NCBI GenBank assembly: GCA_005880695.1
Contig: VBGR01000044.1
Span: 1-64,000, forward strand
Reading direction: 5' to 3'
From: Chloroflexota bacterium
GTDB lineage: Bacteria; Chloroflexota; Dormibacteria; Dormibacterales; Dormibacteraceae
DNA length: 64,000 nt
The notes beneath the pieces are model-generated. The model was given only the letters and a program-made list of their open reading frames with translations, did no database searches and was not told where the DNA came from. A program made the position numbers and the translations under genes. Shown here piece by piece: positions 31,259 to 36,217 of this stretch (its first letter is position 1; each line of letters begins with the position of its first letter).

Positions 31259-31939
31259 TTGGCAGACCGCGACCCGGCGGCCGTGCAGTCGATGTTCGAC
31301 CGCATCGCAAACCGCTACGACCTCGTCAACACGGTGCTCTCCGGCGGAGCGGACGCGCGCTGGCGGCGCCGCGCTGCCGCCGCCACCGAGCTGCGGCCCG
31401 GCGGCTCTGCCCTGGACGTCGCCTGCGGCTCCGGGAAGCTGACCGCCGAGCTGGCCAGCCTCGCGGTTCCTCCCCGCGGCCGGGTTGTCGGGCTCGACTT
31501 CAGCGCCGGCATGCTGGCGCGGGCCCGGCTCGACCACCCGGCCCTGCTGTTCGTGGAAGGCGATGCCTTGAACCTGCCCTTCGCCGACGCGGAGTTCGAC
31601 GCCGCGACGATGGCCTTCGGCCTCCGCAACCTGGCCGACCCCGAGCGGGGGCTGCAGGAGATGCGGCGGGTGGCGAGGCGGCTGGTCGTCCTCGAGTTCG
31701 TCAAGCCGCCACAAGGTCCGTTCGGGACCGTCTACCGCCTTTACCTGCGGACCCTGCTGCCCGCCATCGGGGGTTGGTTGAGCGGCGCGCCCGCCGCCTA
31801 CCGGTATTTGAGCGACACGGTTGACTCCTACCGAACTCCCGCCGAGCTGGTCGCGATGGCGAGCGCCGCCGGCTGGCGGGAGGTCACGTTTCTCGGTCTG
31901 ATGCAGGGGACGGTGGGCCTCCTCGCCGGCGACGCCTGA
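31259..31939 (+). CDS. menG: Demethylmenaquinone methyltransferase (MenG/UbiE)
   Basis: 226 residues, the UbiE/MenG fold. Motifs seen are [30 protein letters not shown] (SAM motif I), [11 protein letters not shown], and [21 protein letters not shown]. It methylates demethylmenaquinone to menaquinone, the final step. The start is TTG 31259, 6 bp after the thiolase stop, so menG is expressed as the last gene of a catabolic operon. The convergent reverse operon carries the polyprenyl synthase and UbiA domains of the same pathway; the two operons overlap at their 3' ends by 56 bp. Confidence 0.93.
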
Positions 31940-32258
31940 TCTCCAGGATCACCACGATCGCGACCAAAACCGAGCCGGCGAGCGTCACCAGTGCGTATCC
32001 CCAGGCCGCCGCGTACGTCGCGTAGGCGTACTGCACTCCCTCTCCCGGTCTGACGGCCGGACCGATGATGCTCAGTCCGACGATGCCCGCTCCGACGAGA
32101 TAGGCGCCGACGGGGAGGAGGTCGGCCGCCTTGCGCACGGTGACCGCCAGGATGATCAGCACCAGCAGCGCCAGGAAGATGCCCGGATACTCGAGGAAGA
32201 CAGAGCCGAACCCGCAAACCCCGCCGACAAGGACGTAGACGAGGAACCGCTGCGTCAT
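31884..32258 (-). CDS. Small four-helix membrane protein ending the menaquinone operon
   Basis: 124 residues starting MTQRFLVYVLVGGVCGFGSV, with about four membrane helices and a basic C-terminal tail ([14 protein letters not shown]). No family is recognised. Its ATG overlaps the CPBP protease stop by 4 bp, so it belongs to the reverse operon. Its 3' end overlaps the 3' end of menG on the opposite strand by 56 bp. The frame is open upstream only as antisense or shadow of the CPBP gene. Confidence 0.75.
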   Translation of the reverse strand: MTQRFLVYVLVGGVCGFGSVFLEYPGIFLALLVLIILAVTVRKAADLLPVGAYLVGAGIVGLSIIGPAVRPGEGVQYAYATYAAAWGYALVTLAGSVLVAIVVILEIRRRRRGGPPSPASDRET

Positions 32259-32875
32259 GCGGGCGGCGGGACGGTCGGCTGGACGAGAAAGATCCAGAGG
32301 TCCCAGACGATGTGGCTGACGATCAGGGACGGCAGCCGGCCTTCGACCAGGTACTGCGCGCTCCAAAAGGCGCCCGCCACCGACGCCGCGCCGGTCAAGG
32401 TCAGGTTGCCGGTGACCAGGTGGATCCCGCCGTAAATCAGTGCGCCGATCGCCGCACCGGCTCCGCGGCCCAGCCGCTGCATCAGGTAAGCGTTGACGAG
32501 GCCACGCCAGAAGAGCTCCTCGCCCGGCGCGATGGCAAGCGCCAGGACGCCGGCGATGAACCAGCGCGGTGCCTCCTGGCGTCTGGCATAGACCTCGTCG
32601 ATGTCGGCCGCGCCGGCCGGCATCACCCGGCGCGCGAAAACGTCGCCGGCGCGAAAGATTCCGTAGAGGGCCGCGGCCGTCGCGAGGCCCACGCCGAGGT
32701 CACGGGGTCGGGGCCGCTGCCGGCGCAGCTCGGGGTTCGCGGCCACGGCCAGCGCTCCGAGCGCCCCGACGCCGGCGGCCATCTTCGGCCAGAAGTGGGA
32801 CCGTCCTCTGAACGCGACCGTCCAGGTCAGGCCGGCCAGGGCCAGGCCGGCCGCGAAGTGGCGGCCGCGGATCAA
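32255..32875 (-). CDS. CPBP family intramembrane metalloprotease
   Basis: 206 residues, several membrane helices. The CPBP (Abi) motif 1 EELFWRG, motif 2 YGGIH and a third histidine motif (SLIVSHIVWD) are present, as in Rce1-like CAAX proteases. Such proteins cleave or act on prenylated or other membrane substrates; a link to the adjoining polyprenyl genes is tempting but unproven. The TTG start at 32875 overlaps the UbiA-fusion stop (TTGA). TTG is the only start near the beginning of the conserved region. Confidence 0.85.
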   Translation of the reverse strand: MIRGRHFAAGLALAGLTWTVAFRGRSHFWPKMAAGVGALGALAVAANPELRRQRPRPRDLGVGLATAAALYGIFRAGDVFARRVMPAGAADIDEVYARRQEAPRWFIAGVLALAIAPGEELFWRGLVNAYLMQRLGRGAGAAIGALIYGGIHLVTGNLTLTGAASVAGAFWSAQYLVEGRLPSLIVSHIVWDLWIFLVQPTVPPPA

Positions 32876-34842
32876 TGAACCAGGCGGCTCAGGACCAGGC
32901 CCGCCAGGAGGAGCACGCCGAAGAAGGTGTGCAGGCGGGCCGTGTGGAGGTCGATGTATGCGATCGAGCGGAGGCTGCCGGCGCCGCCCTTTTCCGCTTC
33001 GTGCAGCAGCCAGACCACCGCTGGCAGGCTGAGCATCGTGAGCAGGGTCAGCGTGGGGAGGAGTCCCGTCATCACGGCCAGAGCCACAGCGACGTAGGCG
33101 CCGACGAGAAGACCGACGTAAAGCCATTGCGCGAACCGGCGGCCGAGCTCGGCGGAGAGGGTCGTGAAGCCGAGGCGCTTGTCTTCGCCCATGTCGCGCC
33201 ACTCGTTGCCGTGGAGGATTGCCGTCACCAGCAGCCCGACCGGCACAGAGAGCGCGACGGTTCGCCAGTCGAACCCGCCGGAGGCCGCGAAGTACCCCCC
33301 GACGACCATCAGCGGACCCATCATCAGGAACACCAGCGGGACTCCGAGGGCGCGGTACTTGTAGTGCAGCGGCGGCGCCGTGTAGAAGTAGCCGCCGAGC
33401 AGCCCGAGGGCGCCGAGCAGGACCATCCAGGGGCCGCGTACGACGGTCAGGTAGAGACCGATGAGGATGGTCACCGCGAAGAAGACGTAGGCCAGGTTGA
33501 GCGCCGCCTGCTCGCTGATGCGTCCTTTCACGATGGCCAGGCTGGCGCGGGGCGAGGTGATCGAGTCGATCCCATGCCGGACGTCGTAGACCTCGTTCAC
33601 GACGTTGGTCCCGGCGTGCAGGAAAAGTCCGCCCAGGACGGCCAGCAGCCAGGGCAGCAGCTCGATCCGTCCCTGCGTCCAGGCCAGGACGCCGCCGGCG
33701 GTGACCGGCAGCACCGAAGCCGTGAAGCTGAAGGGGCGGGCCAGCTCGTAGACCGCGCCGAGCCCGCGCCGGAACCGCTTTGAGGCCGGCTCGCGCTCGG
33801 CCGCCGCGGTCGTGGGCAAGGGCGATCCCGCCCCAACCCGACCCGCTGACGCGTAGGTCACCGCCGCGCCGAGGATGGCCTGGACCTGAGCCTCTTCCTG
33901 GACCACCGGCTGCAGCAGTGGCACGTCCATCCCCGCCTGGTGGTAGGCGTACGCCCGCTCGGCAACGTCGTCCGTCGTCCCGACCGCGACGTAGGCGTCC
34001 AGCAGCTCGTCCGGGATGGCCTGGGCCGCGCCGTGGTAATCCTCGGCGCGCCAGAGCTGGTTGACGCGGTCGCGCAGCTCGGCCGGGAAACCGGCCCGCT
34101 TGAGTGAGATGTCCGAGAGGATCGAGATCATGTAGATCACGAAGGGGTCCCGCTTGGCCCGGTTGCGCGCTTCCGCCCGGGAGCTGTCGACCAGGCAGAA
34201 GAGGTAGCCGCGGAAGTCGAGGTCGCTCTCAGGACGGCCGTGGCGCGCGGCCGACTCCAGGACGCGCTGGCGCATCAGCTCAAAGGCTGGGAGGGACTCC
34301 AGGGGGCGAGACAGGTAGCCGTCCGCCTTCTCGCCGGCCAGCTCCAGGTAGGGACGCGTGTAAGCCGCGACGTAGATCGGGATCTTGTGTGGCGGCTGGA
34401 ACATCGGGACCAGCGGCGGAACCTTGTCGTTGAGGACGAGGCGGTGGCCCTGCCAGAGCTCCCGGACCTGGTCGATCGCCTCGCTGACGCGGCCTACGGC
34501 GTCCTCGTGCGCGATCCCCATCTGGCTCAAGCGGAGCGGCAGGCCGCTGCCGAGAGCGAGCGAGATGCGCTCGGGGGCGAGGTCGTCCAGGGAGGCCAGC
34601 GTTTGGGCCAGCACCAGGGGATGGCGGGTGTACGGGTTGAGCGAGCCGGCGCCGATCCGGATCTCGCGCGTCTCGTGGGCGATCGTGGCGAGCAGGCTGA
34701 CCGGCTCGCGTTCGAAATAGCTGTCGTGGACCCAGACCGACTCCAGGCCCGCCGCTTCGGCCTGCTTCGCCCATTCGACCGTCTCCCGGAGGTCGCCGCG
34801 CGAGGCGAGGCCGAGGCCGACCGGGATCGCGAGCTCAGGCAT
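32872..34842 (-). CDS. Fusion of luciferase-like oxidoreductase and UbiA prenyltransferase (MenA-like)
   Basis: 656 residues in two parts. Residues 1 to about 335 are a luciferase-like (LLM) flavin/F420-dependent oxidoreductase: LGLASRGDLRETVEWAKQAE, VWVHDSYF, GSLNPYTRHPLVLAQTLAS, then FDSS and VAVGTTDDVAERA segments. A short Ala/Ser linker follows. Residues about 359-656 are a UbiA-type prenyltransferase with eight or nine helices, motif 1 NEVYDVRHGID (416-426) and motif 2 WRDMGEDKRLGFTTL, closest to MenA (1,4-dihydroxy-2-naphthoate octaprenyltransferase). ATG 34842 gives the normal LLM start. The first Asp of NDxxD is Glu here. I do not recall this fusion elsewhere; the two domains may act in sequence on a prenyl acceptor. 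Confidence 0.85.
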   Translation of the reverse strand: MPELAIPVGLGLASRGDLRETVEWAKQAEAAGLESVWVHDSYFEREPVSLLATIAHETREIRIGAGSLNPYTRHPLVLAQTLASLDDLAPERISLALGSGLPLRLSQMGIAHEDAVGRVSEAIDQVRELWQGHRLVLNDKVPPLVPMFQPPHKIPIYVAAYTRPYLELAGEKADGYLSRPLESLPAFELMRQRVLESAARHGRPESDLDFRGYLFCLVDSSRAEARNRAKRDPFVIYMISILSDISLKRAGFPAELRDRVNQLWRAEDYHGAAQAIPDELLDAYVAVGTTDDVAERAYAYHQAGMDVPLLQPVVQEEAQVQAILGAAVTYASAGRVGAGSPLPTTAAAEREPASKRFRRGLGAVYELARPFSFTASVLPVTAGGVLAWTQGRIELLPWLLAVLGGLFLHAGTNVVNEVYDVRHGIDSITSPRASLAIVKGRISEQAALNLAYVFFAVTILIGLYLTVVRGPWMVLLGALGLLGGYFYTAPPLHYKYRALGVPLVFLMMGPLMVVGGYFAASGGFDWRTVALSVPVGLLVTAILHGNEWRDMGEDKRLGFTTLSAELGRRFAQWLYVGLLVGAYVAVALAVMTGLLPTLTLLTMLSLPAVVWLLHEAEKGGAGSLRSIAYIDLHTARLHTFFGVLLLAGLVLSRLVH

Positions 34843-36217
34843 CGCGGCCCACCACTGCCTGCGCGATCTCGACCAGCTCGTCGCGGACGCCGTCGAGGTC
34901 GGCACCGTCCAGCTCCCGTACGGCGGCCTCGACCAGGTCGCGCGCCTCGCCGTTGACGCGCTCCAGGGCCCCGCTCACCGCGACCAGCTCGACCACCTTC
35001 TTCAAGTCCTCGTCGGGCAGGGGGCCGGCCAGAAGTCGCCGTATCTCCGGCCCGGAGGCGCTGTCCTCGGTGGCGTAGATCAGCGGCAGCGAGAGGACTC
35101 GCTCGCGCACGTCCTGCCCGAGCGGCTTGCCCGAGCTCTCGCTGAAATCAACCACGTCGTCGGCCATCTGGAAGGCGACGCCCATCAGCTCCCCATAGCG
35201 GCGGAGCCGCTCGATCTTTTCGGCTGGAGCGCCGGCGAGCTGAGCGCCGGCCGTGCAGGCGGCGGCCATCAGGGCAGCCGTCTTGCCGCGAACCACCCGG
35301 AGGTAGGAATCCTCATCGCCCGGGTAGCCGCCGCGCAGCTCGACGTCGTCGATCTGGGAGCGGCAGATCGCTTCCAGCGCGGCCGCGATCGTGCGCGTGA
35401 CGGCAGGCTCGTCCAGCTCGGCGATGAGCCTGGTCGCCTTGGCGAAGTAGAAGTCGCCGACGGCGATGGCCCGCTCCGGTCCCTCTTCCGCGGCGACGGT
35501 CGCGGCGCCCCGGCGGCGGGGACTCTCGTCGACGTAGTCGTCGTGGACGAGCGTGGCGGTATGGATGAGCTCCACGGCGGCCGCCAGGGTGGCGGAGCGG
35601 AGTGGATCGCTCTTCGGTCCCAGCTGGGCGGTCAGGAGGACGAGAAGCGGGCGGACGCGTTTGCCGCCTGCCGCGACGAGCCTGCCCATGGGCAGGCTGA
35701 CCGGCTCCGGGTCGGCGAGCAGCTGCCGCTCCAGCTCGAGCTCGAGGAGCCGGCGAATGCCCGTCGGCGCGGCGCTGGAGAAGTCGCCCTCGAGCTGGAG
35801 GGCGACCTCGCGTGCACGAGGTCCGTCGAGCTCGACGGCGAAGACCGACTGCCAGCGTCCGAGAACCGGCCGGCCGTCCTCCACCAGGATCGTGAGCGCC
35901 GGCTGAAGCAGGACAGTGCGGCAGTGGGCGTGGCCGTTGACAGGCTCGTCCTCGCGGATCCCGGTCCGGACTGTGAAATCGTCGTGGAGGAAAGGCCCAT
36001 CGCCGGGCACGAGGCGCTTCAGCATCGCCTCCAGGTCGGCGAGCAGGAGCGGCTCGTTCTCATTCACGGCCAGCCCGAGGGTCGTGTGGAGCGACTGCAG
36101 GTGGATGCGCCCTGTCCGGAGGCCTGCCTCCGCAACCGCCTCGCGCAGCTGTGGCGTGACGTCGATGAACTCGGTGGGCCGCTTGCTGGTGAGCTGGAGC
36201 CGTTGCCCGCTGTTCAC
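34835..36217 (-). CDS. Fusion of YjbQ domain and polyprenyl diphosphate synthase
   Basis: 460 residues. Residues 1 to about 145 match the YjbQ (UPF0047, secondary thiamine-phosphate synthase) fold, with HTTLGLAVNENEPLLLADLE, NGHAHCRTVLLQPALTILV and LGRWQSVFAVELDGPR. Residues about 150-460 are a trans-polyprenyl synthase: GGKRVRP (184-190), first Asp-rich motif DDYVDE (226-231), second DDVVD (353-357). Small residues before the first motif (A221, T222) suggest a long product, suitable for a menaquinone side chain. GTG 36217 overlaps the preceding 118-aa gene (GTGA). Its 3' end overlaps the LLM-UbiA start by 8 bp. The role of the YjbQ domain here is unknown. Confidence 0.88.
   Translation of the reverse strand: MNSGQRLQLTSKRPTEFIDVTPQLREAVAEAGLRTGRIHLQSLHTTLGLAVNENEPLLLADLEAMLKRLVPGDGPFLHDDFTVRTGIREDEPVNGHAHCRTVLLQPALTILVEDGRPVLGRWQSVFAVELDGPRAREVALQLEGDFSSAAPTGIRRLLELELERQLLADPEPVSLPMGRLVAAGGKRVRPLLVLLTAQLGPKSDPLRSATLAAAVELIHTATLVHDDYVDESPRRRGAATVAAEEGPERAIAVGDFYFAKATRLIAELDEPAVTRTIAAALEAICRSQIDDVELRGGYPGDEDSYLRVVRGKTAALMAAACTAGAQLAGAPAEKIERLRRYGELMGVAFQMADDVVDFSESSGKPLGQDVRERVLSLPLIYATEDSASGPEIRRLLAGPLPDEDLKKVVELVAVSGALERVNGEARDLVEAAVRELDGADLDGVRDELVEIAQAVVGRDA

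Follow-up and report, generated by a model that had tools for sequence, protein, structure and literature searches.

The 64,000-nucleotide stretch of DNA analysed here (the window) carries on its minus strand, from an ATG at 34842 to a stop at 32872, one stop-free frame of 656 amino acids in which a luciferase-like (LLM) domain is followed by a UbiA prenyltransferase domain. The plus strand across 32872-34842 is not open. The frame, its two parts and its neighbours are as follows.

31259..31939, plus strand: UbiE/MenG-type quinone C-methyltransferase (TIGR01934, 199.3 bits, cut-off 158.35), convergent with the fusion operon.
32255..32875, minus strand: CPBP / CAAX-like intramembrane protease family gene (PF02517, 46.8 bits), directly downstream of the fusion.
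32872..34842, minus strand: fused open reading frame of 656 amino acids, with the LLM domain at residues ~8-320, a variable linker at ~321-355 and the UbiA domain at ~356-656.
32875..33789, minus strand: UbiA membrane prenyltransferase part of the frame, with motifs NEVYDVRHGIDSITSPR and HGNEWRDMGEDKRLGFTTLS (PF01040; phylogenetic tree and motif table; nearest structure 8djk).
33780..34842, minus strand: LLM part of the frame (luciferase-like, F420-type TIM barrel) with the linker (PF00296, 205.7 bits; closest solved structures F420-dependent Mer).
34835..36217, minus strand: YjbQ/UPF0047 domain fused to a long-chain polyprenyl diphosphate synthase (PF01894, 105 bits; PF00348, 189.5 bits).

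The original prediction described a single frame joining the two domains without a stop or frameshift, and the profile searches bore this out. Residues 14-306 match Bac_luciferase (PF00296) with 205.7 bits against a Pfam cut-off of 27.9, which together with the TIM-barrel fold places this half in the LLM superfamily, and residues 378-614 match UbiA (PF01040) with 114 bits against a cut-off of 34.2. The second half shows the features of the UbiA superfamily, namely predicted helices across residues 353-655 and two Asp-rich motifs, and both of the motifs quoted beforehand, NEVYDVRHGID and WRDMGEDKRLGFTTL, are present. An alternative GTG start lies 21 codons upstream of the ATG, but relatives favour the ATG. 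Structure prediction of the 656-residue chain, one of the checks suggested at the outset, agreed with the domain assignment: an AlphaFold2 model built from 43 relatives (mean pLDDT 86.4) consists of a TIM-barrel half, a disordered linker (residues 335-350 below 50 pLDDT) and a helical membrane half, with a pTM of 0.65 that leaves the mutual placement of the two halves uncertain. While the fused frame itself had been recognised correctly, the earlier description overlooked that it lies on the minus strand, that a conserved CPBP gene follows it and that the host lacks Men and Mqn genes.

The fusion is real and not an artefact. When one genome per species (GTDB 220) was scanned, 80 related loci emerged, matched over nearly the full length with 46-96% identity. 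In all 80, which come from other genomes, both domains lie in one open frame with no stop, while linker lengths differ by tens of residues; both domains also pass Pfam in each of the 43 members that were aligned. These open frames rule out an assembly error at the junction, which the original prediction had named as a possible refutation, and a two-gene ancestor. Among 61 close genomes, the fusion is intact in 15 and truncated by a contig end in one (G056). In the close relative G006 the domains lie in different frames and ~25 residues are gone at the start of UbiA, which looks like a local deletion or an assembly fault and not a two-gene ancestor, because its near relative G013 is intact. Across 400 evenly sampled Chloroflexota genomes, all LLM matches at E≤1e-40 were joined to UbiA, and no stand-alone LLM orthologue was found at that threshold. 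All 80 loci apparently derive from uncultured genome assemblies, chiefly Chloroflexota/Dormibacterota with some Anaerolineae and Limnocylindria; two (L064 and L087) carry Actinomycetota record labels, which are unchecked. Within the sample the fusion spans at least 11 Chloroflexota families, soil and groundwater lineages included. The architecture had been called unfamiliar, and it is indeed rare. Searches of open-licence papers found no LLM-UbiA fusion, and nothing on point about Dormibacter quinones or a link between CPBP proteins and quinone synthesis.

The most constant neighbour is the CPBP gene; its TTG start and the TGA stop of the fusion overlap in the sequence TTGA. In 75 of the 80 loci a co-directional homologue lies directly downstream, and three of the other five loci end at a contig edge. 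The partner keeps the EExxWR and two His motifs and has a shared N-terminal motif, FRGxxxxFWxxM; no NCBIfam model covers the gene. This near-constant partner is a candidate for a second step of the pathway. The UbiE/MenG-type gene, which had been predicted to be encoded nearby, was found at 31259-31939 on the opposite strand, and UbiE adjoins the fusion in about 20 loci. On the other side, the YjbQ-polyprenyl synthase gene shares 8 bases with the start of the LLM-UbiA gene, an arrangement restricted to the nearest relatives. The joining of YjbQ/UPF0047 to a polyprenyl diphosphate synthase gives the operon another fused gene, present in the window and also in L034, L035 and L120. In L112, NrfD-type respiratory genes lie upstream of the fusion.

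Phylogenetic analysis separated the UbiA domain from MenA, the 1,4-dihydroxy-2-naphthoate (DHNA) prenyltransferase. In a tree of 50 domains, including 14 fusion rows, 16 Chloroflexota MenA encoded beside MenB/MenD, E. coli MenA and E. coli UbiA, all verified MenA and E. coli MenA form one clade (100/99) that excludes all 14 fusion rows, and the fusion rows form a clade of their own (98/97). The two groups belong to the same superfamily and have similar paired Asp motifs, but they differ at the acceptor side, where the fusions read NE[IV]YDVRxGxDxI.SPR and NEWRDxxEDxRxG and MenA reads NDYxDxxxGADxxxRxGP and NNLRDxxTDxxAGKRTLA. The lysine of GKRTLA and the NN/ND motif residues are altered in all fusions checked. 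The best NCBIfam matches are DHNA prenyltransferases (PRK06080.1-1, 175 bits), with all MenA models below their cut-offs. The closest solved UbiA structure by sequence is UBIAD1 (PDB 8djk, MK-4-forming; 3.6e-22), an animal enzyme without an LLM domain; UBIAD1 prenylates a reduced naphthoquinone acceptor. The group nearest to the LLM-UbiA fusions in the tree, with weak support (93/76), consists of fusions of UbiA to a PNPOx-like split-barrel domain in the Men-less genomes G312 and G397 (L148 and L149). These too have an N-terminal flavin/F420-type fold, lack MenD, MenB and MqnA in the genome and have lost the GK lysine, although their redox fold is unrelated to LLM and their PNPOx_N match is weak (E 5e-4 and 1e-3, below the Pfam cut-off).

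We compared gene content in 35 Chloroflexota genomes with the fusion and 35 without it, all drafts or MAGs scored by profile cut-offs. MenD and MenB exceeded their cut-offs in exactly the same 25 genomes, 2/35 with the fusion and 23/35 without it (Fisher p=1.6e-7, uncorrected for kinship). In the family to which the window belongs, both were present in 0/3 genomes with the fusion compared to 13/13 without it, and neither was found in the window's genome (G000). The two exceptions, G268 and G338, have a full MenB/MenD/MenA set plus the fusion. The MqnA/MqnD family (PF02621) was found in 0/70 genomes while control genomes were positive, which rules out assignment as MqnP, the prenyltransferase of the futalosine pathway. 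A UbiD-based route of the ubiquinone/plastoquinone type was rejected, with UbiD in 7/35 fusion-bearing genomes and missing in 28/35, as was a plant-type plastoquinone route from homogentisate, with HPPD in 15/35; G000 has neither UbiD nor HPPD. NuoH was detected in 34/35 and UbiE in 33/35 of the fusion-bearing genomes. Since the fused UbiA lies outside the MenA clade and 33/35 hosts lack MenD and MenB, the ordinary route to menaquinone, from DHNA of the host's own making, does not operate here. The domain is MenA-like, as had been predicted, but tree placement, changed motifs and hosts mostly without MenD/MenB do not support a true MenA. In six fusion-bearing genomes (G001, G127, G141, G169, G281 and G389), the only UbiA protein besides the fusion scores like heme O synthases, and the high-scoring UbiA of G000, G038 and G044, when checked, passed heme O synthase cut-offs. 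Two fusion-bearing genomes, G085 and G279, have an extra UbiA gene near UbiE; the G085 copy, the one placed in the tree, groups with MenA, so these genomes may have a quinone prenyltransferase besides the fusion. The window's genome also has a third, very divergent UbiA (L114, G000:C105:1508-2581) beside a TPP-dependent enzyme.

The LLM domain is closest by sequence to Mer, the F420-dependent 5,10-methylene-H4MPT reductase (PDB 1f07, 1z69 and 8qpl), among solved structures (8qpl, 5.7e-43 with the A3 profile). A Foldseek comparison with LLM structures gave TM scores of 0.86-0.90 normalised to Mer compared to ~0.65-0.75 for most FMN monooxygenases, and the closest F420-dependent LLM structures were Mer and FGD. 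The fusion retains two features of Mer, the NPYxR region and the glycine in its cis-peptide loop. However, it is joined to a membrane domain, Mer models stay below their cut-offs (171 of 276 bits and 145 of 348.7 bits), and two functional residues of Mer (PMC11094777), the catalytic Glu6 and the pterin-contacting Asp96, are replaced by an invariant Gly11 and by Leu101, respectively. With both residues replaced, the domain is therefore Mer-like in build but not Mer, and the loss of the catalytic Glu rules out Mer activity. One Anaerolineales operon (L093) reads npdG, cofE, an F420-type split-barrel gene, an FbiB-like nitroreductase gene, cofD, cofC, a Mer-like LLM gene, the fusion, CPBP and UbiE, with npdG, cofE, cofD and cofC all passing NCBIfam cut-offs. 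This is the one locus in which F420 genes directly adjoin the fusion; in G127 and G285, cofD lies ~10 kb away. Across the compared genomes, cofD was found in 32/35 with the fusion and 30/35 without it, and since it is equally common in the latter, the availability of F420 is permissive and not diagnostic. The original prediction had left the cofactor as F420 or FMN. Mer as the nearest relative by both sequence and fold, and the F420 genes of L093, favour the former, and judging from these comparisons F420 is the likely cofactor, though FMN could be used instead.

Taken together, we give a probability of about 0.5 to the reading that the fusion is a bifunctional, F420H2-linked prenyltransferase and serves an undescribed pathway to isoprenoid quinones in those Chloroflexota from which the known ones are missing. 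More tentatively, it may be the signature enzyme of a third, F420-dependent route to isoprenoid quinones, possibly with a new head group, in many uncultured respiring Chloroflexota without Men, futalosine or UbiD pathways. The product is likely a quinone; of the earlier proposal that both domains act on the same quinone or prenyl intermediate, quinone-type chemistry thus stands as likely. Reduction of the prenyl chain, one of the steps it suggested, gained no specific support, and a redox step on the head group is just as conjectural. UbiA active sites open to the cytoplasmic side, and the N-terminal LLM domain, also cytoplasmic, would probably use F420/F420H2 to transfer a hydride to or from the head group of the quinone. 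In the simplest version, the LLM domain would reduce a quinoid acceptor to the hydroquinone, which a UBIAD1-like UbiA site would then prenylate; alternatively, it may reduce or oxidise the ring of the prenylated product. The polyprenyl chain that the UbiA domain transfers would come from the polyprenyl diphosphate synthase encoded next to the fusion, and UbiE would then methylate the ring. Enzymes such as Ddn reduce finished menaquinone, but we know of no earlier link of F420 chemistry to quinone assembly, and the fusion would be the first. In a 2026 survey covering 26,264 bacterial genomes, Bacillota and Chloroflexota made up most of the lineages without any known quinone pathway, and its authors suggested that undiscovered quinones may exist in them (PMC13386864). 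The fusion offers a named, testable gene for the Chloroflexota part of this gap: it tracks the absence of Men genes, often lies close to UbiE and, a putative heme O synthase aside, is the sole UbiA of some genomes.

The chief rival is that these organisms scavenge DHNA or a similar naphthoate from their neighbours, keep a prenyl synthase, UbiA and UbiE to finish menaquinone, and use the LLM domain to hold DHNA or demethylmenaquinone reduced. Lactic acid bacteria and streptococci include users of outside quinones or DHNA. Lactiplantibacillus plantarum is a reported example (PMC10746273). The retained gene set, with a prenyl synthase, UbiA and UbiE but no MenD, MenB or Mqn, is what would be expected of a scavenger, and some Men-less genomes (G085 and G348) carry a MenA-clade UbiA near UbiE. 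However, scavenging demands auxotrophy for an essential redox carrier across the at least 11 families that carry the fusion, from soil and groundwater among other settings. It is further weakened because the fused UbiA lies outside the MenA clade with its motifs changed, and because G268 and G338 keep the fusion despite having MenA and the full MenB/MenD set. We regard scavenging as unlikely, while taking it as the most serious alternative to an F420H2-linked quinone prenyltransferase.

An ordinary MenA joined to a quinone reductase, supplied with DHNA by an unrecognised or divergent Men-type route so that only the architecture is new, is improbable. The best-scoring NCBIfam models and the largely kept Asp-rich motifs speak for it, but every MenA model falls short of its cut-off, tree and motifs set the fused UbiA apart, and MenD and MenB vanish together, which one divergent gene would not explain. 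It is also quite improbable that the product is some other prenylated aromatic, such as a methanophenazine-like carrier, a pigment or a secondary metabolite, with the quinone obtained elsewhere. UbiA enzymes take many aromatic acceptors, F420-dependent LLM enzymes also serve secondary metabolism, and the position of the UbiA domain outside the MenA clade would fit such a role. Against this stand the adjoining UbiE genes, the polyprenyl synthase in the window's lineage, the NrfD-type genes of L112 and the several genomes with no other UbiA except a putative heme O synthase. Least probable is that the LLM domain hydroxylates the ring as an FMN- and oxygen-dependent monooxygenase, a type of step known from ubiquinone or plastoquinone synthesis: LLM enzymes do include FMN monooxygenases and one member weakly matches the FMN-dependent model TIGR04020 (seco_metab_LLM, 53 bits), but all the nearest structures, whether by sequence or by fold, are F420-dependent, L093 ties the gene to F420 genes, and the gene also occurs in Anaerolineae, many lineages of which are anaerobic.

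Several other UbiA arrangements were observed. First, UbiA genes lie next to or near UbiE in genomes without MenD, MenB and MqnA (G348:C3, G330:C88, G194:C40, G085:C60 and G279:C75), and the two of these included in the tree (G348 and G085) belong to the MenA clade. Such Men-less genomes give a second hint of an unknown or scavenged naphthoate supply in Chloroflexota. Second, one UbiA in G040 (L159) has an unassigned N-terminal part, different from the split-barrel domain of G312 and G397. Lastly, in other Chloroflexota (L142, L143, L144, L145, L146 and L147), UbiA shares one frame with an ABC-transporter permease (PF00528).
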